Source: Candidatus Endomicrobiellum trichonymphae
Lineage (GTDB): Bacteria > Elusimicrobiota > Endomicrobiia > Endomicrobiales > Endomicrobiaceae
DNA length: 64,000 nt
Direction: 5' to 3'
Assembly: GCF_002355835.1 (NCBI RefSeq)
Contig: NZ_AP017459.1
Span: 868,001 to 932,000, forward strand
Shown: one piece after another, positions 8,014 through 41,559 of the stretch
Numbering within the stretch: the stretch's first letter is position 1
How the letters are laid out: the number at the start of each line of letters is the position of its first letter
Program-made: the position numbers and the translations under genes
The notes under the pieces: generated by a model
Database searches by the model: none
Told to the model about the DNA's origin: nothing
Seen by the model: only the letters and a program-made list of their open reading frames with translations

Positions 8014-10116
8014 CTAACCTATATTTATAAACTTTATTTTATCTGAAAAATGCTTACATATCAGACTTTTTAACACTGCATTTTCACCTTTGGAAAGATA
8101 GGGATCCTGTTCGGTAATTTTAGCGGCAAGATTCTTTGTAAATTCAATAATATCGGCATCTTTTATCAAATCACCCGCCTTAAATTTAGGAAAACCGTGC
8201 TGTAATGTCCCCATCAATTCTCCATGACCTCTCATCTTAAGATCTTCCTCTGCAATTTTAAAACCGTTGTTCGTGGAAGTCATAACCGAAAGTCTTTTGC
8301 GGGCAGCTTCATTTTTTAAATCCCCTATGAGGTATGTATAAGATTGTTTAGATCCCCTGCCTATTCTTCCCCTGAGCTGATGGAGATCCGACAGTCCAAA
8401 CCTTTCGGCATGCTGTATTATCATAACCGTAGCGTCAGGAACATCTATCCCCACTCCGATGACAGTCGTAGATATCAGAACATCAAACTCTTTGTTTTTA
8501 AACTCCAGCATTATTTTATTTTTTTTCGACGATTTCATTCTCCCGTGCAACAGACCGACTTTAAAATCTCTAAACCACGTCTGCGACAGTTTTTTCGATT
8601 CCTGCTCCGCAGACTTTAAGACAAGTCTGTCCGATTCGTCTATAATAGGATATACAATATACACCTGATTTTTATTCTTAAGCTCTTCAATTGCCTTTAT
8701 ATAAGCGGATTGTTCAGCCAAAAAATAAGTTTTTACGGAAGTTCTTCCGGGAGGCAACTGCTTAATCGCGGTCATATCCATTCCGCCATACACAGTCAAC
8801 GCAAGAGATCTCGGAATAGGCGTTGCCGTCATCATTAAAATGTCAGGCGAACGCGCTTTATCAGACATCGCAAATTTCTGCATAACTCCGAATTTTTGCT
8901 GCTCGTCAACTACTATCAACGACAAATTTTTAAATTTTATTTTGTCTTCTATTAATGAATGCGTGCCAATTGCAATTTTTATATCGCCGCTTTCAAATCC
9001 CGCCAATATCTTTTCTCTTTCGCTCTTTTTCTTTAATGTTAAAGAAGTTGCCAAAACAGCTTTAACGCTGAGACCTAAAAGCATATTTGAGACCGTAAGA
9101 TAATGCTGTTCGGCTAAAATTTCAGTAGGAGCAACAATCATCGTCTGATAGCCGTTTCCCACTGCGAGCAAAACCGCACTTAACGCCACGACTGTTTTCC
9201 CGCATCCTACATCTCCCATAAGCATCCTGTTCATGGGATATAGGCTTTGCATATCGGAAAAAATATCGTTTATTGCTTTTTTCTGGTCTTTCGTAAATTC
9301 AAGTTTTAAATTTCTTTTAAAAGCCGTAAACAACGTTTTCTGTATTTCGTACCTTTGCTCTTTACGTTTTTTTCTTATATTGTTGTGCGACAGCGAAAGG
9401 GCAGATTCAAAAATAAAAAATTCCTGTAAAGCAAAAGCTCTCCTTGCATTTTCGACATCTTCCAAAGTGCCAGGATAATGAATCTTTTGAATTGCAAGCG
9501 AAGATTTCAATCTAGGGATACCGCCAAAATCTGGTATTAAATCCAAGACGTCGGGATATAATCCGCAAACAGAATCCAAAATACTCTTAACTGCTTCTCT
9601 TATAAATCTTTGATTCAATCCTTCTGTCAAAGGATATACAGGCATAATTCTGTTAAACAATAAAGGTTTGTCTTTCTCATTTTTGACAGTTTCGTAGTCA
9701 TCTACATCTATAAACCTGCCGCAGTTTCCCGTTTTTGTACTGCCGTAAATATAAGCAAAAGTTCCAGGCTCAAAAGCTTTTTTTATGGAAGCAAAAATGT
9801 CCGTGCTGGAATAAGGGTTTTTCTTTCTAAAAAAACGAGCGTAGCCTGTAGAAACACCGTCAAATATTTCTATATACAAAAGACATAGCCCTCTTGAAAG
9901 CTGTCTATCATAGGCTTTTCCTATTTTACCGAATATACAGCTTTGCGGCTGCTTATAGGCATCTCTTATTGAAACGATATTTTTTCTGTCCTGATACCAA
10001 ACAGGGAAAAAAGTCAGCATATCGCCGACGGTTATTATACCGAGTTTTGCAAACGTTTGCGAGCGTCCGGGACCAATTCCCTTTAAATATTGTATTTTGT
10101 TGTCTAAATTCAACAT
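8014..10116 (-). CDS. recG: ATP-dependent DNA helicase RecG
   Basis: Remodels stalled forks and Holliday junctions. The 700-residue protein has the N-terminal wedge (OB) region, Walker A at residues 301-308 (GDVGCGKT), helicase motif II as VVDEQQKFGVMQ (usually DEQHRFG, so one change H to Q), TATPIPRSLALT, and the C-terminal GVGIDVPDATVMI and QLRGRIGRG motifs. Length and motif order are complete and there is no frameshift. It stands alone between the DUF177 relic and the divergent rpmB gene. Confidence 0.96.
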   Translation of the reverse strand: MLNLDNKIQYLKGIGPGRSQTFAKLGIITVGDMLTFFPVWYQDRKNIVSIRDAYKQPQSCIFGKIGKAYDRQLSRGLCLLYIEIFDGVSTGYARFFRKKNPYSSTDIFASIKKAFEPGTFAYIYGSTKTGNCGRFIDVDDYETVKNEKDKPLLFNRIMPVYPLTEGLNQRFIREAVKSILDSVCGLYPDVLDLIPDFGGIPRLKSSLAIQKIHYPGTLEDVENARRAFALQEFFIFESALSLSHNNIRKKRKEQRYEIQKTLFTAFKRNLKLEFTKDQKKAINDIFSDMQSLYPMNRMLMGDVGCGKTVVALSAVLLAVGNGYQTMIVAPTEILAEQHYLTVSNMLLGLSVKAVLATSLTLKKKSEREKILAGFESGDIKIAIGTHSLIEDKIKFKNLSLIVVDEQQKFGVMQKFAMSDKARSPDILMMTATPIPRSLALTVYGGMDMTAIKQLPPGRTSVKTYFLAEQSAYIKAIEELKNKNQVYIVYPIIDESDRLVLKSAEQESKKLSQTWFRDFKVGLLHGRMKSSKKNKIMLEFKNKEFDVLISTTVIGVGIDVPDATVMIIQHAERFGLSDLHQLRGRIGRGSKQSYTYLIGDLKNEAARKRLSVMTSTNNGFKIAEEDLKMRGHGELMGTLQHGFPKFKAGDLIKDADIIEFTKNLAAKITEQDPYLSKGENAVLKSLICKHFSDKIKFINIG

Positions 10117-10620: not shown

Positions 10621-11678
10621 TTACTGCCAGTCTTCTAAAATAATTTCAGCTACTCTTCTACTTACGCCCGGTGTTCCAAGCATTTTTCTGAAAGCAAGCA
10701 GTTTCTCAACTTTCGGCATATAACTTTGTACTTTCAGCAGTTCCAATACCGATGATGCGATTTTCTGCGGTTTCGCATCAAATTGTATAAATTTCGGCAC
10801 AATACTTCTGCCGGCCAAAATATTTACTATAGCTGCGTATTCTATCTTTATAATTGCTTTTATAAAAAAATAGTTAAAATAAGACAGTTTATACATCACA
10901 ACCATCGGGATTCCCATTAAAGCGTTTTCAAGACTTATTTCAAAATCTCCAGAAGTTTCAAGTTCAATGTATTCAGGCAAATCAAAGACAGCACTGCCGG
11001 ATACGCTAAACATTACAAATTTTGCGTTTATTTTTTTTCTTCAAGTATTTTAGCAGTTTCAAGGATTACCCGTATATGACGACTAAATACGCTTTCTGCG
11101 ACTGCCGGGGAATAAGTCCCTATTAAGAGCGGATTTGATACTTTAAAACTCCTTTTCTCCAGTACTCTATCTATCAAAGGATTTCCGACAAAAATGGCAT
11201 CAACACCGTTATCTTTATACAATTTTTCTTCAAACGGAAAAATTACAAGTATTTTTTTTGACCGTTTCGGCAAGTTTTTTTATTCTTCCGACGCCCAAAC
11301 CTGCGGACTTATATAATAGTAAACCGGAATATTTAATTTTTTTGTAAGTTTTGCGACAAATATATGAAATCCATAATAGTCCACAAGCACGACTTTATCG
11401 GGACATTCTTTAACAAAATAAGTCTCAAGTTTTTTTAAAACTTTCTTTAAATAGAAAACCTGTTTTAGGGGCAGAAAACCGAAAGCATTTATATTTACTA
11501 TATCTTCAAGAAATTCGTCGGCAACAGATTTTAAATTGCCACCGCCTACAGCGGAAATACGACATAAAGGACTGATGCTTTTTATCTCTTTTACGAGATT
11601 TGAAGCATGTATTTCACCGGAAAGATCCCCAGCAGAAATGAAGATTTTATCGTTCGCCATTTTTACCTTATAAAACAC
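10621..11678 (-). pseudogene. lpxB: Broken lpxB (lipid-A-disaccharide synthase)
   Basis: Three minus-strand pieces in different frames add up to nearly the whole ~380-residue glycosyltransferase. The N-terminal piece (11280-11678) has ISAGDLSGEIHASNLVKEI, SAVGGG and ISPQVWA. The middle piece (11028-11273) has ILVIFPFEEKLYKDNGVDAI and FVGNPLIDRV. The C-terminal piece (10621-11013) has TSGDFEISLENALMGIPMV and ends in an LpxB-like arginine-containing helix. At least two frameshifts and stops separate them, and a short segment after the QVWA motif is lost. The enzyme would join the two glucosamine units of lipid A. It is the last gene of the decayed lipid A cluster. Confidence 0.9.
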
Positions 11679-11756
11679 TCAATGATCCGGACAGAGTGGC
11701 AGCGGCAAAGACCGCATTTCGTCCGAATTTAATTTTTACTCTCACGCTTTTTGTCA

Positions 11757-12602
11757 AAACACCATATTTTTAAGAATGTTCAGCAACAATTCAACGGCAT
11801 CTCCCCCTTGCTCACCTGAAACAGCGGTTTTTTCTCCTTTAATAACGCTGCTGAGGAAATTATCAACTTCGTAAAAAAGCGGTTCATTCACTAAAAGTTC
11901 AGATTTTTTAACATCTATGCCAGAAAAAGAAACTATCTTTTTTTCCTCTTTTTTTTATAAACACTGAGACTTTTTCCTGAATAATCTAGAGAACCATAAC
12001 TGTCTGGCTGAAAAATTCTTATTTTTCTATACTTCTCCATTGAAACCTGCTTGCAGACACGTTTGCCACACAGTCGTTTAAATATTTTAACCTGACTTTT
12101 GCAATATCCTCAGAGTCCGAAAGAATTTTTGCCCCATGCGCTTCAAAAGAAACAACACTATCTTTTACAAGAGAAAATAAAATATCTAAATCATGTATCA
12201 TCAAATCCAACACTACGCCGATATGATTCTGGGCACATAAGGGTCCGAGTCTGCTAACTTCAATAAATTTCGGACTATTTATAAACGGCATAGCGGCAAT
12301 AACCGCAGGATTAAATCTCTCGACGTGTCCTACCCCTGTAAAACCAAATTTCCGGTTTTAGCCGTTTCTATAAGTTCTTCAGCTCCCTCAACGCTTAGAG
12401 TAAAAGGTTTTTCGACAAGGCAATGTATACCGTTTTGCAAAAGCGGTTTTGCCACCAAATAATGATACCCTGTAGGAACTGCAATTACTGCCGCATCGAT
12501 TTTCCCTAAAAGCCCACCGAAATCAGTTAAATGATCTGTCTTATTTACTTTTGCAACTTTTTTGGCTCTTTTTTCATCTACATCAACGACAAACTCAAGC
12601 TT
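11757..12602 (-). pseudogene. Broken Gfo/Idh/MocA oxidoreductase (GnnA-like)
   Basis: Pieces in several frames form an NAD-dependent sugar oxidoreductase. The N-terminal half keeps GKIDAAVIAVPTGYHY and HCLVEKPFTLSVEGAEELI (the EKP motif), then a frame change leads to GVVLDLMIHDLDILFSLV (12019-12291) and a further change to the C-terminal IFQPDSYGSLDYSGKS piece. The Rossmann GxGxxG start is gone, because a deletion fused what remains to the neighbouring aminotransferase. Gfo/Idh plus DegT genes beside lpxA are known as GnnA/GnnB, which make the 2,3-diamino sugar of some lipid A; that role is inferred from position. Confidence 0.8.
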
Positions 12603-13340
12603 AGAATATAGTACTTCGTCTGTAGCTTTTTCCGCTTCTCTGCACAATCCGTCCTTGTATCCGAACCGTCTGCAAAACGATTGTTTATATAATACGGTAT
12701 TATAATAAATTCCGCTTTCTATGCCGCTATCCGATAGATATTCAATAAACTTTTTTCTTTCGGAAGACGAAATTCTTATCGTATACTGATGAAAAACGTG
12801 TCTGCAGTTTTCTGGAACATAAGGCGTTTGCAGGAAACTCAAATCTTTAAAAGCTTCACTTTATTTACGGGCATTCGCAATCCTTTTTGCAATCCAGTTT
12901 TCAAGCTGGGCTATGCCTATTGCCGCCGCAAGATTTGTAAGTCTGTAATTATATGACTGAGAATCACATCAATATCGCACGGAACTCCGTAGAGATGAAC
13001 AGTCAAAACAGCTTTGATATTTTTTCCCGTTTTTAACGTTTTCTCAAGTTCGACAGGATCTATGTTAAAAGTTTTCGGGTCAATATATGCAAAAACAGGC
13101 TTTGCACCACAGAAAAGAATTGAATTTAAAGTTGCTATAAATAAAAAAGGCGTCGTAACAACTTTATCCCCCGGCTTAACTCCGCACATTAGGAGAGCCG
13201 TATGAAGCGACGCTGTTCCATTTACATTTGCAATACCGAATTTTACACCGCAGTACCGCGCAAAAGACTGTTCAAACCAAGCAACGTATTTACCGTTTGC
13301 AAGAATTCTTGAATCCAAAACTTCCTTAATCAGCCACCTT
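12603..13340 (-). pseudogene. Broken DegT/DnrJ/EryC1 sugar aminotransferase (GnnB-like)
   Basis: The N-terminal piece (12917-13318) reads CGVKFGIANVNGTASLHTAL, PGDKVVTTPFLFIATLNSIL and VHLYGVPCDID, typical of PLP sugar aminotransferases. After a deletion a second frame gives SYNYRLTNLAAAIGIAQLE, and a third gives HVFHQYTIRISS and GIESGIYYNTVLYKQSF. The region between YGVPCDID and YNYRLTN, which carries the PLP-binding lysine, is missing, so the protein could not work. The C-terminus runs straight into the oxidoreductase relic. It probably paired with that enzyme in lipid A amino-sugar synthesis (inferred from the neighbouring lpx genes). Confidence 0.82.
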
Positions 13341-13374
13341 TCTTTTTTTTCTTTACTTTTGCTTTTGTTAAAGA

Positions 13375-13590
13375 CTAAAGAGTTTCCACATTTTCACTTT
13401 TTAAAGCGTCTATGATCTTCTGAAATTCCCATATAGAAAGCCGGTAGGTTTTATCGCATAATTTTTCCAGCCCGGCATCCGCCTCTTCTTTTAAAGCAAT
13501 GCAGACAACACTGCTACCACTTCTTTTTATTTCTTCTGCTACCAGAAAAGGGAATCTATTATTTCCCGCTATAAGACCTACATTTTCCAT
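13375..13590 (-). pseudogene. lpxI: Truncated lpxI (UDP-2,3-diacylglucosamine pyrophosphatase, DUF1009)
   Basis: Only about 71 of ~270 residues remain. The piece starts ENVGLIAGNNRFPFLVAEEI and continues SVVCIALKEEADAGLEKLCD and SIWEFQKIIDALKSENVE, which is the N-terminal Rossmann-like half of LpxI. The catalytic C-terminal domain is absent; the aminotransferase relic begins 35 bases further on. LpxI replaces LpxH in many bacteria and commonly sits between lpxA and lpxB, as here. Confidence 0.8.
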
Positions 13591-13648
13591 AGAAAAACTC
13601 TTCTCTGGCTCAGTTTATCCTCATAGAAGCAATAACCCCGGACAGCAC

Positions 13649-14223
13649 TTATACGGGTCTTGCTATTCCTCTTTTGGAATTCTTTATAAATTCGACTATT
13701 TCCTGCACGCAAACGGACGCGCTCTGTTCTATTCCCGTCAAAGCATCTTTAAGCAAATTTTTTGACATAAAGAGAGTACGGTAAGCGTTCTTAACAGCAT
13801 CGATTTCTTTAAGAGATATTTTCTTTCTTCTCATATCAACCAAATTCAAACCGTTGAGCATCGCCCTATATCCTATACATAAAGCGTAGGGAATTATATC
13901 CATAGTAACGGCGCATCCATCGTGCCTTTTTCAATTTTTGTAAACTGTTGAATTCCGACATACCCGCTTATAAAAGCATCGTCACCAACTACAACTTTTG
14001 TCTTTTCACCATGGTATTTCAAATCCTGAGGACATTTGCCTACCGACGAAAAATTAAAAATCTCACAGTTATTGCCTAACTCGGCATATTCAATAACAGA
14101 TTGTCCGTGTATTTTGGTCCCGCTCTTTATAATTGTGCTAGGACCTACAATCGTATATGGTCCTATTTCTAAATTTTCTTCAATAACTGCACCTTTATCA
14201 ATTACAGCTGTCTGATGAATCAT
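13649..14223 (-). pseudogene. lpxA: Broken lpxA (UDP-GlcNAc acyltransferase)
   Basis: The first piece begins MIHQTAVIDKGAVIEENLEI and keeps the left-handed beta-helix up to CPQDLKYHGEKTKVVVGDDA, then jumps to GYVGIQQFTKIEKGT. A frameshift leads to the C-terminal helical piece (13649-13903) with NGLNLVDMRRKKISLKEID. Roughly 80 residues of the helix between GDDAFIS and GYVGIQQF are deleted, and they include the catalytic histidine region. The first step of lipid A synthesis is therefore lost. Confidence 0.9.
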
Positions 14224-14355
14224 TTGATGCCTTCCATTTATCTCGTCTCGGATGTTACAGTAATAACCACATACAGACAAATATATTCTCCACTTTCCTA
14301 TTTTTCTTCTGTCAGTAAGGAAAAAAGAAGATATACAATTATCCCGCTCTGTCTT

Positions 14356-14847
14356 TTACTCTCTGTCAACAATAATAAATGAAAATTCAGCTTCTGCTAC
14401 CAATTTTTCGTCAACATGAGCTCTGCCTTTCATCTTACCGCGTCTTCCGCTGTCTTTTAATACCTCTACGCACAGCTCAAGAATATCTCCAGGTTTTACC
14501 GGTCTGCGAAATTTTGCGTTGCCTATAGACATAAAATACGCAAGACATCCTTTCATTTCAGGGCGTGAAAGAAACATAACACACGACGTCTGCGCCATCG
14601 CTTCAAGAATTAAAACGCCGGGCATTATCGGCATTCCCGGAAAATGCCCTTGAAAGAAATTCTCATTCCCGCTTACGCACTTATATCCTACGACTTTTGA
14701 GAGATCCGTTGTATTTATCTTAACTTTATCAATCAGCAGAAATGGATACCTATGAGGTATACACTTTAAAATTTCCTCAGTACTTAATATTTTTTCGGTT
14801 CCTGTCGATTTTGTATTTTTAATATTATTGTCCATTTCTACCCCCAT
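14356..14847 (-). CDS. fabZ: 3-hydroxyacyl-ACP dehydratase FabZ
   Basis: Dehydrates 3-hydroxyacyl-ACP in fatty acid elongation. The 163-residue hot-dog protein has IPHRYPFLLIDKV, the catalytic histidine in GHFPGMPIMPG and the catalytic glutamate in LILEAMAQT, then AKFRRPVKPGD. It is complete and free of damage although every neighbour on both sides (lpxA, lpxC) is a relic, which shows selection for its fatty acid role rather than for lipid A. The start may be Met1 (14847) or Met5 (14835), which has GGGGG a few bases upstream. The N-terminal 20 residues are longer than usual. Confidence 0.96.
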   Translation of the reverse strand: MGVEMDNNIKNTKSTGTEKILSTEEILKCIPHRYPFLLIDKVKINTTDLSKVVGYKCVSGNENFFQGHFPGMPIMPGVLILEAMAQTSCVMFLSRPEMKGCLAYFMSIGNAKFRRPVKPGDILELCVEVLKDSGRRGKMKGRAHVDEKLVAEAEFSFIIVDRE

Positions 14848-15325
14848 AGCTTTTGACTGCCTTTTTCAAAAATTCTTTTACAAAAACTATATTATTCTGA
14901 TGTCCCGGTTTTTCAGCAACTATCTTAGCTTTTATAGGTTTTCCCGCCAAATATATATCGCCTATCAAAATCAAGGATTTTATGTCTTACAAATTCGTTG
15001 TTGTAACGCAACAACCCTTCATTCTGTACTCCGTCTAAAGCTATGACTATAGCATTATCCATAGATCCGCCCAAAAAAGCAAGCCCTTTCTTTTTGAGTG
15101 CTTCTATCTCGTAATCAAAGTAGAAAGCTTTTGCCGGAGCAATATCGTTTAAGTCTTTTAAAGACATCTGCTGAAAACGCAAAAACTGATGGTCAAAACC
15201 TATAATACATTTTATTTCAAGATGATCCGACGGATATGCGGATATTCTAGTTTTTCCAGCTTCAAAATGCATAGGCTTTTTGAGAGCATAATACTCTCTG
15301 AGAGCGTCAAATTCTTTCACCCCCC
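14833..15325 (-). pseudogene. lpxC: Broken lpxC (UDP-3-O-acyl-GlcNAc deacetylase), C-terminal half
   Basis: The main open piece (14925-15320) carries TRISAYPSDHLEIKCIIGFD, EIEALKKKGLAFLGGSMDN and the zinc/catalytic stretch FVRHKILDF, followed after a frameshift by PGHQNNIVFVKEFLKKAV. The normal HKxLDxxGD is damaged after the Asp. The N-terminal half of the gene, with the first zinc histidine, is gone; the relic starts at a run of ten C (15320-15329) that joins it to the lpxD relic. LpxC is the committed step of lipid A synthesis. Confidence 0.87.
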
Positions 15326-15329
15326 CCCC
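15320..15329. repeat. Homopolymer run of ten C at a relic junction
   Basis: Ten consecutive C stand exactly where the lpxC relic ends and the lpxD relic begins. Runs of C or G this long are unexpected in this AT-rich sequence and here lie in DNA with no coding function. Confidence 0.9.
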
Positions 15330-15339
15330 AGCTAAATAA

Positions 15340-15778
15340 TAACCCTGTCACCTATCAGTGTATCCTCTTACAACAACATTCGTATATATAAGACATTCTT
15401 CTCCAATTTTTACATTTTTACACCTATTATGCACACATTTGGAAATATCTTTGCATTGCCACCGATTTCAGATCCAGACTCAATCACAACATTTTGCCCT
15501 ATATACGCATCTTTTCCCAACTTTACATCATCTGCTATCGAGGCAGATATATGTATATTTCTTTCTACTACATCTAATTTCTCTTTTTCAACAATAGAAA
15601 GGACAATGCCGTAGGCATAATAGAGGTTTGACACTTTTATTACATTTTTATTTTTAAACCGAGAAATATCGTCTTTATTCGCGGCTGAAAGTCCGCTGAT
15701 ACCTGTCAAAACAATATTTTTGTCGCCGATAAGCTCTCCAGAAACAAGCTCCTCAAGTTCTGATGCGGTAATCTTCAT
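15340..15778 (-). pseudogene. lpxD: Truncated lpxD (UDP-3-O-acylglucosamine N-acyltransferase)
   Basis: The open piece (15410-15778) starts MKITASELEELVSGELIGD, has the uridine-binding-domain stretch YYAYGIVLSIVEKEKLDV and then hexapeptide repeats VKLGKDAYIGQNVVIESG. A frameshift leads to a further repeat stretch GEECLIYTNVVVRGYT and then the sequence breaks off at the C run. The catalytic histidine and the C-terminal helices are missing. It directly follows bamA on the same strand, the standard bamA-(skp)-lpxD order of Gram-negative bacteria. Confidence 0.88.
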
Positions 15779-15953
15779 TTATCCATCCTCTGCCGTTTTT
15801 ATAAATTTGTTAGCCGCAGATTTCCCAGCAGAAACGTTTTGTTAGTTTAAAACTATACCTATACCTGCATTACATTCTATATCTACACGCAATACCATAC
15901 CTTAAATATATTTATTCCCTATAACTTCGTAAAAATAAAAACAATAACGAACG

Positions 15954-18230
15954 TCAATTATCTCCGAAAGAAAAATAAACTTGAGACTGTCTTTTCGCTT
16001 TTTCATGATTTAACCCATATCCCCACTCAATCTTTAAAGGAATCAGGGGAACCATAATCTTTATTCCAAAGCCTATACCCGAATGAACATTTTCCTTCTT
16101 ACTCCCCCAAACTAAATTTATATTGCAATAATTTCCCCAACTTCCGCCTATGTCATAGAATATTATGCCCTGAATTAATTCTCTCCCTTTATAAAAAACT
16201 ATCGGAAATTTATACTCAATATTCATAAATCCCATAATTGTACTGCCTTTTAGGGAGCCGATTTCAGTTCTTAAAGCATACCCTCTTATAGTATCTGAAC
16301 CACCTAAGTAAAACCTATCGTAAATAGGAATTTTTGACTGATTTTTTTTGTATGGTATAATTACGCCATTTTGTAAACTAACACTTAATATAAATTTCCA
16401 AAATGTAGGAAAAAACCACTTTGACTTGACAATTCCTTTAACAAAATTTACATTCCCGCCCAACAAATCGCTTGCCAGATATAAATCTGCAATATGTATG
16501 CTTCCTCTTGAAGGATTAAAAACATAATCTCTCAAATCATATATAAATTGAGTAAAAATGCTCGATGGTTTATCTCTTTCTTTTGCAAAATCCAATTCTT
16601 CTTTAATTTTTAATTCTAAAGACGGACTTATATCTAAAAGCTTAACATGTTCATAACTATATCCGAATAACAAACTCATGTAATTATTGATTTTATGCCC
16701 AGCTTTTATCAAAAATCCTATCCTGTTTTCTTTGTATGTATGATCTTTACTACTGCTATAATTCATATTTTTTTTAACATTAAATGCGTTTAAAATCAAA
16801 CTCATGTTTTTATCAAAAATATAGGGTTCTATCCATTCTATTTCATAATCCTGCTTTTTTTTACAAAATTCCCCCAATAAGCTTAATTTTTGTCCCAAGC
16901 CAAATATATTAGGATGCTGAATTTGCGCCGATGCGACAAGTTGATTATCCGAAGAATATCCGATACCACCGCCAATCTTGCCACTGAAGTCTTTCTCAGT
17001 AATTAAAATCTTTAAATCTACAACATCAGGGTTGTCGGTAGCAAACAGTTGATGTTCTACATTGCTGACAAATCCCAAATTGTAAATTTTTTCAATACTT
17101 CTATGCAGATTTCCACTTGTTAACACTTCTCCGGGTTTTATAAGGAGTTCTCTTCTTATAACTTGGTCTCTTGTCGAAAGAAGTCCGCCAATGTAAATAT
17201 TTCCCACATAAAGAGTTGAATTTTCTTCGATTGATAAATTTACATCAACAATTCCGCCATCAATGTCTTTATTAAAATGCGGAATAATCTTTGCACACGT
17301 ATATCTTCTCTCGTAATAAAGTTTGTAGATGAGGTTCATTGCTTCAATAATTTTATCTTGGTTAAAAATCTGGCCTTTTTTAAATTTAATTGTTTTTTCT
17401 ATTTCTTTACTATCAACGATAGAATTACCGTCATAAGTTATGGAACTTATTTTGTATCTGCTGCCTTCACTGATATTTAAAGTCAGAAACATCTTCGTTC
17501 TGACGGCATTATACACAACTGTTGGAGAAACAAACTTATAGTCAATAAAACCGTTACTCTTATAAAACATTTCTATTGACTTTAAATCTGTCTGATAAAT
17601 ATCTTCCCTAAACATTTTTCCCGGATTTGTATTCATAAGTTTAAGAATTTCTTTCTCTTTAAAAAAAAACATGCCTTTAACTTTAACTTCTTCGACAACG
17701 ATTCTGTTATTTTCAGTTATAAGAAAAGTTATCGTCATTCTATTCGTGTCCAAATCAGTACTAGGATAAACTTCAATCTTGCAATCGGCATAACCTTCAT
17801 CTCCGTATAAAGAGCTTATCTTTTTCTTTGTCTCTTCAAGCTTTGAAAAATCATAGTAATTTTTTTCCTTTAACACGCTCTCTCTTTTAAGCTTTCCTTC
17901 GGAAAACTCCAAATTGCCGTTGAAAGCAATACGCTCTACATACGGTTTCTCCGTAACAACAAAAGTGAGATTTCCACTGATATTATCAAACCGAATTTCA
18001 ACATTATCAAAACAACCCATTTCCAGAATTGAACGGACATCTTTTCTTGCTGCAACGCTTGAATAGCATTTACCTTTTTTAAGATTTACAACTGACAAAA
18101 CGCTTATTAGTTTTACATTTTTCAGCCCCTCGATTAAAACATCTGAAATTATGACAGTGCCTGCATAAGTGTATGTGGAAAACAGAGTTAGAATAGATGT
18201 CAAAACCAAAACTAAAAGAGTTCTCATCAA
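15954..18230 (-). CDS. bamA: Outer membrane protein assembly factor BamA
   Basis: Folds beta-barrel proteins into the outer membrane. The 758-residue protein has a signal peptide (residues 1-23, ending TYAG), five POTRA-type repeats over about residues 25-345, and a C-terminal Omp85 barrel from about residue 400. The barrel includes GGGIGYSSDNQL, GSDTIRGYALRTEIG (the RGY/RGF motif of the substrate-gating loop) and a terminal strand QVYFSFGDN. It is full length and undamaged although the lipid A genes that follow are all dead, so an outer membrane with barrel proteins is still made. A putative promoter lies at 18265-18293. Confidence 0.95.
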   Translation of the reverse strand: MMRTLLVLVLTSILTLFSTYTYAGTVIISDVLIEGLKNVKLISVLSVVNLKKGKCYSSVAARKDVRSILEMGCFDNVEIRFDNISGNLTFVVTEKPYVERIAFNGNLEFSEGKLKRESVLKEKNYYDFSKLEETKKKISSLYGDEGYADCKIEVYPSTDLDTNRMTITFLITENNRIVVEEVKVKGMFFFKEKEILKLMNTNPGKMFREDIYQTDLKSIEMFYKSNGFIDYKFVSPTVVYNAVRTKMFLTLNISEGSRYKISSITYDGNSIVDSKEIEKTIKFKKGQIFNQDKIIEAMNLIYKLYYERRYTCAKIIPHFNKDIDGGIVDVNLSIEENSTLYVGNIYIGGLLSTRDQVIRRELLIKPGEVLTSGNLHRSIEKIYNLGFVSNVEHQLFATDNPDVVDLKILITEKDFSGKIGGGIGYSSDNQLVASAQIQHPNIFGLGQKLSLLGEFCKKKQDYEIEWIEPYIFDKNMSLILNAFNVKKNMNYSSSKDHTYKENRIGFLIKAGHKINNYMSLLFGYSYEHVKLLDISPSLELKIKEELDFAKERDKPSSIFTQFIYDLRDYVFNPSRGSIHIADLYLASDLLGGNVNFVKGIVKSKWFFPTFWKFILSVSLQNGVIIPYKKNQSKIPIYDRFYLGGSDTIRGYALRTEIGSLKGSTIMGFMNIEYKFPIVFYKGRELIQGIIFYDIGGSWGNYCNINLVWGSKKENVHSGIGFGIKIMVPLIPLKIEWGYGLNHEKAKRQSQVYFSFGDN

Positions 18231-38011: not shown

Positions 38012-39460
38012 TCAAAAGACAACAGTCTTTAAGAATTGATGGATTTTTACCATAGCCAACGTATCTCGGGCGCAATATTTCAGCAAGTTTTTTTTTGTTT
38101 CTTCAATTTTTTTATCATCATAGAGTCCCATCGCCATAAAAGCAAAAGAGGCAGCGGCATTTCCGCCGTCTCCTATTTCCAAATCTGCATAATTCATTTC
38201 AGGAACTAGTACCGGAAGAACTTTCTTAATAGACGAACGACCGTGAAAATTTATGTCATAATAATTTTTTTTTAAGATCAGTTCCAAATCGACAATCCTT
38301 TCGGTTATTTTATTAAGTTTTTCACCTAAATCAGAAAAAAGTCTCGCAAGATTAGATATGCAAATACGTTCAAAATTCGCATAGGTTATAACATTGCCTT
38401 CTTCGCCCAAACATTTAATAAGTCTTTCTGCAACTTCACGACGACAGTCTTTTGTCTGATCCGCAATATACTCATAATGATCCAATATATTTCCTGCATC
38501 ATCGGTTCTATCTATTGAGAACTGCGTCAAAAACTGCATATGCGGAGCAATGTCCCGATATAACGGCATTATAGTCATCACCGACTCAAAGTCGAGATAA
38601 TAAAAAGGCTGCTTTATATTATTCATCTCTGTTTTTAAATTTTCCGATACATAATTTGTATTTGTTAAAACGCAGTTTTTAACTATCTGCTGCATTCGCG
38701 AAAGTTCAAAATCAGCTGGAATTTTATCAATCATATCCACACCCGCAGTTATTAATTTCTCTATCGCAAGAACTGAAAGTCTCGGCAGGTCAAATATATG
38801 GTTTTTTATATCTTTACTTATGCAGCCGTCAAACACCAGACAGTTCTTACAATTTCTTTTCAAATAAGGTTCCGGCATATTTTCAGATTCAATATTTTCA
38901 AGAACCTCATCTGAAAGAATTAAAAATTTCTGAACTTTCGACTTAACTTTTTCAGTACAATCCAATCTTTTAAAAAGCTGTGATATATCCATTCCGAGAC
39001 GATAGTCATTTGATAAACAAAGAATAGTAGCTTTACTTACATCGAGTCCTGATTTAGCCAAAACCATTGCTTTAAAAGATATGTCGCGAGCGTATTTAAC
39101 TTTATATTTGTTGCCTGACTTAACCTCAAATAAATGCCATGAATTGTCATCAAGTTTTTGCAGTATATCAACTTTTGTAAAATAACCGCCTGCAACAAAA
39201 GAAGCTCCACAAATTGTTTTAACGCCGGGATCCAAAAGCAACTCTTTAGTATATAATACCGCATCGTAGATTCCAAGTCTTCCGACTTCTACCGCGTTCG
39301 AAAAAAGTTGCCATGAAATATTACGTATCTTTCTCCCCTCAAGCCTCAGAAGTTCATTTCTAGAACAGGTAAGTTTTGGAAGCATATTTCTTCTTGTCAT
39401 CCAACCCAAAGTAGGACAGCTCAAATAGTTGATAAAAGCAGTTTTATTTATATATCTCAT
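38012..39460 (-). CDS. DUF2779 protein: Cas4-like Fe-S nuclease fused to a DnaQ-like exonuclease domain
   Basis: The 482-residue protein has two nuclease-like parts. Residues ~10-215 form a PD-(D/E)XK domain with Asp in TKVDILQ and the E-x-K in HLFEVKSGNKYKV, plus four cysteines placed as in Cas4/AddB iron-sulfur nucleases: C15 (NYLSCPTLGW) and CKNCLVFDGC near residue 205-214. The C-terminal half has FYYLDFESVM (DxE), VITYANFERICISNLA and YCARDTLAMVKIHQF, an RNase-H-fold exonuclease pattern of DUF2779. The frame is intact. It lies 229 bases after the methyltransferase relic on the same strand, so it may belong to a defence locus. Function inferred from motifs. Confidence 0.75.
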   Translation of the reverse strand: MRYINKTAFINYLSCPTLGWMTRRNMLPKLTCSRNELLRLEGRKIRNISWQLFSNAVEVGRLGIYDAVLYTKELLLDPGVKTICGASFVAGGYFTKVDILQKLDDNSWHLFEVKSGNKYKVKYARDISFKAMVLAKSGLDVSKATILCLSNDYRLGMDISQLFKRLDCTEKVKSKVQKFLILSDEVLENIESENMPEPYLKRNCKNCLVFDGCISKDIKNHIFDLPRLSVLAIEKLITAGVDMIDKIPADFELSRMQQIVKNCVLTNTNYVSENLKTEMNNIKQPFYYLDFESVMTIMPLYRDIAPHMQFLTQFSIDRTDDAGNILDHYEYIADQTKDCRREVAERLIKCLGEEGNVITYANFERICISNLARLFSDLGEKLNKITERIVDLELILKKNYYDINFHGRSSIKKVLPVLVPEMNYADLEIGDGGNAAASFAFMAMGLYDDKKIEETKKNLLKYCARDTLAMVKIHQFLKTVVF

Positions 39461-39689
39461 GACTTAAATTGACAACTTGCACATTTTCAAATACTATCTG
39501 TTCTGCACATAAAATATAAATGCAAAACAGTTTTTTCACTCACTTCACAGCTTATTTTTTTCATTCCCCTGAAAGTTAAACCACTGAGCAACATATCTTA
39601 GAACTTTTATGCCAGTTCTTAACTTTGACTTTTATCAAACTATTCGCCCAATTTCAGATAATATTTGCCCTCTCCAAAAACTTTTGTGA

Positions 39690-40178
39690 TCAGAAATCCC
39701 CCAGCGACAACTGGCCTTCCTCTTTTATCTTCCAGTCCTCTTTGCCAACGCGCTGACCTATATCTTCAAGCACGTTCAATATAGTTTGATTTTCAGTCGT
39801 TACACCGTTTTTCAAAAGCGGCAATATATGTAACACTGTTTCGTCAAAAGTCGGATTTCTTTTTTCTCTTTCCATTCTGCGCAGATAGCTAATTAGGTAA
39901 TATCTAATACGCAATTTAACGTCAATATGCGTCTGAAATTTTGCATTCTCTTTTATTGTAAAAATTTTTGTTTGTTCGTCGTAGTCAAAACTTTCACGAA
40001 GCAAAGTCGTAAGATCTGAATATTCCTTCTTTAACAAATCAAGAAAACCAAGCTCCAGTCCCTTAATAATTAACTCGTCGTTTATCTGTTCTAAAGTTGC
40101 GCCATTGTTTTTTGCAATTATCCCCTCTATCGTCTGCGTAACTATATCAGCTATATCCATACCTAAATTCGCTTTCAT
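39690..40178 (-). pseudogene. C-terminal fragment of the DNA methyltransferase
   Basis: The 162-residue ORF starts KANLGMDIADIVTQTIEGII and ends TILNVLEDIGQRVGKEDW. I read this as the C-terminal helical part of the same methyltransferase as the ORF at 40147-41559: it overlaps that ORF by 32 bases in another frame, and neither part contains the DPPY catalytic motif expected between them. It includes a run RYYLISYLRRMEREKRNPTF that is typical of such tails. A deletion with frameshift has joined the two halves. If translated alone it would have no catalytic site. Confidence 0.7.
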
Positions 40179-41559
40179 TATCCCAAAAAGATAAATCTGC
40201 CGCCGTACCTTTTAAAATCTGTACGTTTGAAATTGTTTTATCATTTATAAAATATTCCATTTCTTTTTTTGCCTCGCTTACCTTTTTATAGCGAAGTTCA
40301 AAAGTTTTAATGAAATTCACATCTTTAGGAACTGGAGCTATCCTATATCGATAATACTGAAATGCAGCAACATTGCCGCCATTTTCTGTTTTTACATAGC
40401 TTGAAGCATGATAAGTTAAATTAACTCTTGTGACCAGTCCTGAAAACATCAATAATAATGAACTTTTAATATTTTCATTTTTCTGCTTTTTTATTATTGA
40501 TTTTAATAACGCAAGCCGCACCATTTGTATGTCGCTGAATAGCTTGTCAACAGTATCGACGTCTGAACCCTTGGGTAGCGCAAGTTTTTTTGGTCCCGGA
40601 TATTTCTTCAACGCTTTTTCAATTTCTTCTTTTGTTTTTGGTTCTTTTTTAACATACTCGTCCTTCACTTCTTCAAATGCCTGCGCTAAATCAGATTGTC
40701 TAACAATCGTAGTCATAAGCAATGACTTCACTAAAAAAATCGCCATAGGATTCAAATCTATATTTATAGCTTTTCTCCCGTTCATCAAGGCTTCAACGGC
40801 AGTAACTCCGCTTCCGCCAAAAGGATCAAGCACTAAATCGCCGGGCTTGCTATAGTTTTTAATATATTCGGCTACTATATTCCAGCTCTGTTTTGTAAAG
40901 TATCCGTGAACGCCGAAATGTCTTTTTGCGGCTCGTTTTTTTACTGGTATTTCTTCAAGCAGAAGTCTGTTGACATAATCAAACTGATTTTCATATAATC
41001 CAGTCGTTTCTCTCGGTTCATAATAAAACCTTTTGCCTGTTTGAAAACTTGCAGGAGACAGCAAAGTTATCAGTTTTTCCCAATTTTCATCTATATTTTC
41101 AAGTTTAAAATATAAAACAGGCTTGCCGTCTGTTGAGAAAGAAGTCCTAAAAACTGAAAACTCTAAGCCGTTGCAAAGCGCAAAATATGTGCTGCTTATT
41201 TCACGGTGCGCAGCATAACTGTAAACTTGCTCTACATTATCGCTATTTATAACTTTTTGATCCGGCGCTTTTGCATCTAAAACCCATGCGCAATTATTCC
41301 CTACTTTTAAAACATAATCAGGTATAAGGTTTACAGCTCTCTTTTTACTCCCAACTTTTAAAAAAGGATGCTGCAAAGTTCTACTGCGGACAATGTTTTC
41401 CTGCGCATATCCAAGTTTTTTCAGTATAGGCGAAATTATAACTTCTCTAACACTATCTTCCTTAAAATCACGATCAGAAGCTATTTTGTTGAAATTGAGA
41501 TCAGAAAATACAGTTTCTTTCATTTTAAACTTTAAGTCTCTTTTTATCTGTTTCGTCAC
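40147..41559 (-). pseudogene. DNA methyltransferase with N-terminal HsdR-N-like domain, catalytic motif lost
   Basis: A 470-residue ORF. Residues ~20-150 resemble the HsdR N-terminal nuclease-type domain, with LIPDYVLKVGNN and WVLDAKAPDQKV (the D...DAK pattern). Residues ~235-290 carry the SAM-binding motif DLVLDPFGGSGVTAVEALMN and NIDLNPMA. The frame ends at ADLSFWDNES plus seven out-of-frame residues; in this methylase type the DPPY motif should follow at once. It is absent here and in the downstream fragment, so about 110-130 residues have been deleted. Probably a dead restriction-modification methylase. Confidence 0.72.

Follow-up and report, generated by a model that had tools for sequence, protein, structure and literature searches.

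Decay of the lipid A operon around intact bamA and fabZ in an Endomicrobium trichonymphae-type endosymbiont

The window, a 64,000-nt stretch of DNA, comes from a 'Candidatus Endomicrobium trichonymphae'-type endosymbiont whose genome (1.13 Mb in four contigs) is 99.6% complete. Bacteria of this type live inside the protists of termite guts. We named genes from their open frames together with NCBIfam and Pfam models. At 8-18 kb, the minus strand carries, in order, bamA, lpxD, lpxC, fabZ, lpxA, lpxI, a DegT-family and a Gfo-family gene, lpxB and recG, with rpmB on the plus strand between the last two. Whole genes at this locus are limited to bamA, fabZ and the outer genes; the relics of all the other named genes lie on the minus strand at 10621-15778, flanked by intact bamA and recG (Table 1). 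The pathway to which the lpx genes belong is that of lipid A, the anchor of lipopolysaccharide.

Table 1 Genes and gene relics of the lipid A locus, with positions in the window
Feature	Position	Strand	State
bamA (Omp85)	15954..18230	-	Intact, 758 aa; five Pfam POTRA domains and Omp85 in one frame
lpxD relic	15326..15778	-	Small indels and an in-frame loss of 84 bp; 3' half gone through an 860-bp deletion into lpxC
lpxC relic	14844..15325	-	N-terminal ~119 codons lost, +1 frameshift, 10-bp loss at the 3' end
fabZ	14356..14847	-	Intact; likely start 14835 (MDNN...) or 14847
lpxA1 relic	13989..14223	-	5' part only, 78 codons
lpxA2 relic	13649..13988	-	3' part only; a 1,525-bp deletion fuses lpxA1 to lpxA2
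lpxI relic	13350..13617	-	First ~80 codons left, remainder deleted
DegT-family aminotransferase relic (GnnB-like)	12608..13348	-	Start, middle 238 bp and end deleted
Gfo/Idh-family dehydrogenase relic (GnnA-like)	11757..12607	-	Start deleted; five more frame-breaking indels
lpxB relic	10621..11660	-	Frame broken by five indels; 42 bp also deleted
recG	8014-10116		Flanks the relic string opposite bamA; recognised from its sequence

As the reference for these lesions we used the nearest relative compared, Endomicrobium sp. Hs463_bin80 (L003; the same contig, at 100% identity, is also G023), in which the string bamA-lpxD-lpxC-fabZ-lpxA1-lpxA2-lpxI-DegT-Gfo-lpxB is entirely intact. Most other relatives examined share this collinear, intact operon, and near-full-length LpxC is found in 62 of the 77 family genomes. 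In a global alignment of 7.7 kb of the window with 11.4 kb of L003, the two strings were collinear throughout, with 87-93% nucleotide identity where aligned; relative to L003, deletions in the window total 3,675 bp and insertions 41 bp. Each of the eight genes besides bamA and fabZ is disrupted, and together they carry 21 distinct frame-breaking indels over 4,398 aligned bp. No complete frame for LpxA, LpxC, LpxD or LpxB is left, and order and homology identify the string as a relic operon.

An earlier, sequence-only reading of this DNA had held that lpxD, lpxC, lpxA, lpxI, lpxB and the DegT/Gfo pair are broken, with particular residues lost, and the alignment with L003 bears this out: the lpxA deletion takes out the HIAHD catalytic region, the N-terminal part of LpxC is gone, and the 238-bp DegT deletion includes the PLP lysine (Lys182 in L003). 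The single lpxA of that reading is indeed a relic, but is really the 5' end of one gene joined to the 3' end of another, since L003 has two intact lpxA genes; the accompanying count of six lpx-type genes holds if both copies are counted, although only five were listed. The 84-bp lpxD deletion is flanked by copies of a 9-base direct repeat. Further losses run from lpxI into DegT (~680 bp) and from DegT into Gfo (149 bp), and numerous small frameshifts are present in Gfo and lpxB. Both members of the DegT/Gfo pair probably belong to lipid A synthesis too, as they resemble gnnB/gnnA, the pair associated with GlcN3N lipid A; the best match of the intact L003 Gfo protein is UDP-GlcNAc 3-dehydrogenase, at 211 bits and below the 450-bit equivalog cut-off, and that of L003 DegT is PseC, also below cut-off.

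The claim that bamA and fabZ are untouched was likewise upheld by comparison with L003: over 2,735 bp they contain no frame-breaking indels, whereas the density seen in the relics predicts 13 (Poisson P about 2e-6). FabZ is recognisable as a dehydratase by score (172.7 bits for NF000582, cut-off 113; 163.8 bits for TIGR01750, cut-off 155) and by its retained active-site motif, HFPG..IMPG...EAMAQ, and BamA by its five POTRA domains and barrel. The locus fabZ is the only FabA/FabZ-family gene in the genome, which would account for its survival; the type II fatty acid genes fabF, fabG, fabD, fabH and plsX are intact in the same window, at 1.8-7.2 kb. BamA inserts barrel proteins into the outer membrane, and is expected to be required for as long as such proteins exist.

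We estimated omega from a three-taxon codon model, comparing the window's branch with background. For the pooled relics, window-branch omega was 0.40 (background 0.17), which differs both from background and from 1; for the ileS control it was 0.15. The relic value fits constraint followed by recent release and, as a rough inference, leaves about the last quarter of the window's branch unconstrained. Window-branch omega was 0.64 for fabZ (background 0.15) and 0.92 for bamA (background 0.44; above background, p 0.009). bamA may therefore be partly relaxed; a polarised relative-rate count for this gene was 68 vs 51 (p 0.14), with no clear excess. The dN/dS comparison that had been proposed as a check thus fails to separate the spared genes from the relics, as neither bamA nor fabZ falls below the relic value, and the case for selection is carried by frame integrity and retention across lineages. 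The idea that lipid A loss is generally accompanied by faster BamA evolution was considered and rejected: in the lineages with losses, BamA/IleS terminal-branch ratios were 6.1, 2.6, 1.9 and 1.8, and the median elsewhere was 2.2 (p 0.67).

We read the locus directly in about 30 relatives and found four further lineages (G006, G026, G027 and G034) without a working lpx operon there. G026 retains scraps of lpxC, and G006 scraps of DegT, Gfo and lpxB; around bamA and fabZ in G034 and G027 nothing recognisable remains, and in G027 the two genes stand side by side. Both are in full frame in all four lineages. LpxA, LpxK and WaaA gave no matches in these four genomes, which are incomplete MAGs (60-83% complete), and we regard the reading of the locus as firmer evidence than missing matches. 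A tree of IleS, BamA and FabZ indicates five separate losses, the window's included, of which at least four are forced by well-supported branches. G021 and G035, which are missing LpxC, were rejected as extra losses, as a contig end cuts the operon and the remainder is intact. Intact frames in the window, together with retention of bamA and fabZ in four other lineages, support the earlier proposal of selection on single genes within a dead operon.

Partial states also occur: the loss is confined to the DegT/Gfo pair in G024 and to lpxA1 in G004, hinting at possible shifts between amide- and ester-linked lipid A. Two tandem lpxA genes with an adjoining GnnA/GnnB-like pair are present in many relatives (L003:14951-17060; L061; L065). 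Elsewhere (L076; G017:C118), a contig ends in a tandem duplicate of ~1.1 kb that includes a broken lpxA, perhaps an assembly artefact.

The majority of the 77 family genomes encode an LpxC-FabZ protein of ~450 aa, with FabZ as its C-terminal half. Such a fusion is already known, having been noted in Chlorobium (PMC516016), and is represented by NCBIfam PRK13188, against which the window's FabZ has its best score. Unlike these fusion proteins, the window's version is split, and its LpxC half is dead. LpxC and FabZ are also separate frames in G004 and G023, the window's nearest kin, with a Shine-Dalgarno-like AGGAGGTGA upstream of fabZ in G004 and GGAGGGTGA in L003. The separate frames in all three genomes place fission before the loss of LpxC in the window's clade. 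Fission is not a general prerequisite for loss, as lpxC has disappeared from G006 and G034, whose relatives have the fused form; the start of FabZ in G006 falls within the former LpxC-FabZ linker.

We consider it very likely that the locus belongs to an intracellular symbiont whose lipid A pathway has recently undergone reductive decay, and that bamA and fabZ were retained because both do other essential work. The intact operon of L003 would date the decay after the split between the window and L003. The pathway presumably became dispensable, and the eight genes would then have eroded through deletions and frameshifts. fabZ would have been kept because the cell has no other 3-hydroxyacyl-ACP dehydratase, and bamA for outer-membrane barrel insertion, with both proteins presumably active, and FabZ could have been spared because the ancestral LpxC-FabZ fusion was already two genes in the clade. 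Two observations count against recent decay with selective retention, namely that window-branch omega for bamA and fabZ is not below that of the relics, and that LptF and LptG are intact (see below).

The first of these would fit a reading in which bamA and fabZ are also leaving, and are intact merely since decay has not yet arrived there; the omega of about 0.9 for bamA, and the little time that has elapsed since the loss, are in its favour. However, the absence of frame-breaking events where 13 are expected, the persistence of both genes where the lpx genes have been wholly erased, as in G027, and the status of fabZ as the only copy make this improbable.

Family (profile) searches across the window's genome returned only the window's own fragments for LpxC, LpxA and LpxB, and model PF04613 found no match for LpxD genome-wide; these searches revealed no second lpxA, lpxC, lpxD or lpxB. 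LpxK is broken across two frames (C1:503959-504866) and WaaA contains stops (C1:823004-823455), so that a check for further copies, set out as one way to overturn the sequence-only reading, left it standing. Given the lack of second copies and the broken lpxK and waaA, the cells probably make no lipid A, a prediction from the genome. Near the broken lpxK (C1:503000-506000; L088) there are more broken frames that by eye resemble glycosyltransferase and heptose-bisphosphate phosphatase genes, and core sugar genes may also be dead.

LptF and LptG, which are usually linked to lipopolysaccharide export, are intact in the window's genome (C1:954559-956762; L109:4539-6778), as they are in G006 and G026, both predicted to lack lipid A. 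Some lipid is perhaps still exported, which would suit a cell that makes lipid A through an incomplete or alternative pathway, using the remaining fragments or host-supplied precursors. We hold this to be very improbable: the enzymes of the first steps (LpxA, LpxC and LpxD) have been lost and are not duplicated elsewhere in the genome, LpxK and WaaA are defunct as well, and LptFG are also present in control genomes that lack LpxC (Thermotoga, Thermus and Deinobacterium). Under reductive decay, the retained LptF and LptG may export another lipid. LptD has been reported missing across the whole family (PMC11257099).

Together with LptF/LptG, the intact bamA and an intact TolC-type OEP protein of the window's genome suggest a diderm envelope. 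The sequence-only reading had gone further, to a diderm cell that inserts barrels without making lipid A; the intact bamA and OEP genes and the lack of lpx copies are consistent with this, although its two physiological parts, absence of lipid A and activity of BamA, stay predictions.

That the operon works and its frameshifts arose through sequencing or amplification error can be practically discounted because the largest lesions span hundreds of bases and are not homopolymer slips. A few single-base indels do adjoin short A or G runs, but faulty base calls cannot explain five deletions ranging from about 150 to 1,525 bp (the lpxI one aligned in pieces). In addition, bamA and fabZ have no frame-breaking indels, lpxK and waaA are broken elsewhere in the genome, and the same pathway is given as pseudogenised in the separately sequenced Rs-D17 in a passage of a published account (PMC4505116).

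That passage, in a 2015 paper citing Hongoh et al. 2008, describes lipopolysaccharide biosynthesis as interrupted by pseudogenes in Endomicrobium trichonymphae and intact in the free-living E. proavitum (PMC4505116). 'Candidatus Endomicrobium trichonymphae' Rs-D17 belongs to the same named species group as the window's genome, one small replicon of which is, over parts, 91-94% identical to the three Rs-D17 plasmids; the plasmids differ, however, and Rs-D17 is another strain. Because the passage already reports such decay for the species, the window's decay is less surprising than had been held. A survey by Mies et al. (2024) found that many Endomicrobiellum lack key lipopolysaccharide genes, which most other genera have; its main text does not name lpx genes, parallel bamA-fabZ retention or LpxC-FabZ fission (PMC11257099). 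In symbionts of Edessa stink bugs, which have lost nearly all of the lipid A pathway, lpxA, lpxB and lpxD are gone and the adjacent fabZ and rnhB are kept, a likeness to the window; these are Pantoea-type bacteria, however, with lpxC elsewhere, between ftsZ and secA, and unfused to FabZ (PMC8032781). That this symbiont has lost lipopolysaccharide synthesis was thus already published, and decay of this kind is well documented; the detail added here is the parallel losses and the LpxC-FabZ fission. In open-licence papers we found no description of the repeated bamA-fabZ remainder or of fusion fission in these symbionts.

The locus is a clean snapshot taken soon after pathway loss: a near relative still has the operon intact, and in more distant ones it is fully erased. 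It belongs to a natural series for how a cell with an outer membrane abandons lipopolysaccharide, and for how an essential enzyme leaves a bifunctional protein as its partner half decays. We tentatively propose, at rather less than even confidence, that Endomicrobiellum dropped lipid A at least four to five times, always keeping bamA-fabZ, that FabZ was freed by prior fission or by salvage upon LpxC loss, and that LptF/LptG export a different lipid.

Elsewhere in the window, at 38012-41559, a DUF2779/Cas4-like nuclease-domain protein is encoded near a DNA methylase, possibly as a defence remnant.
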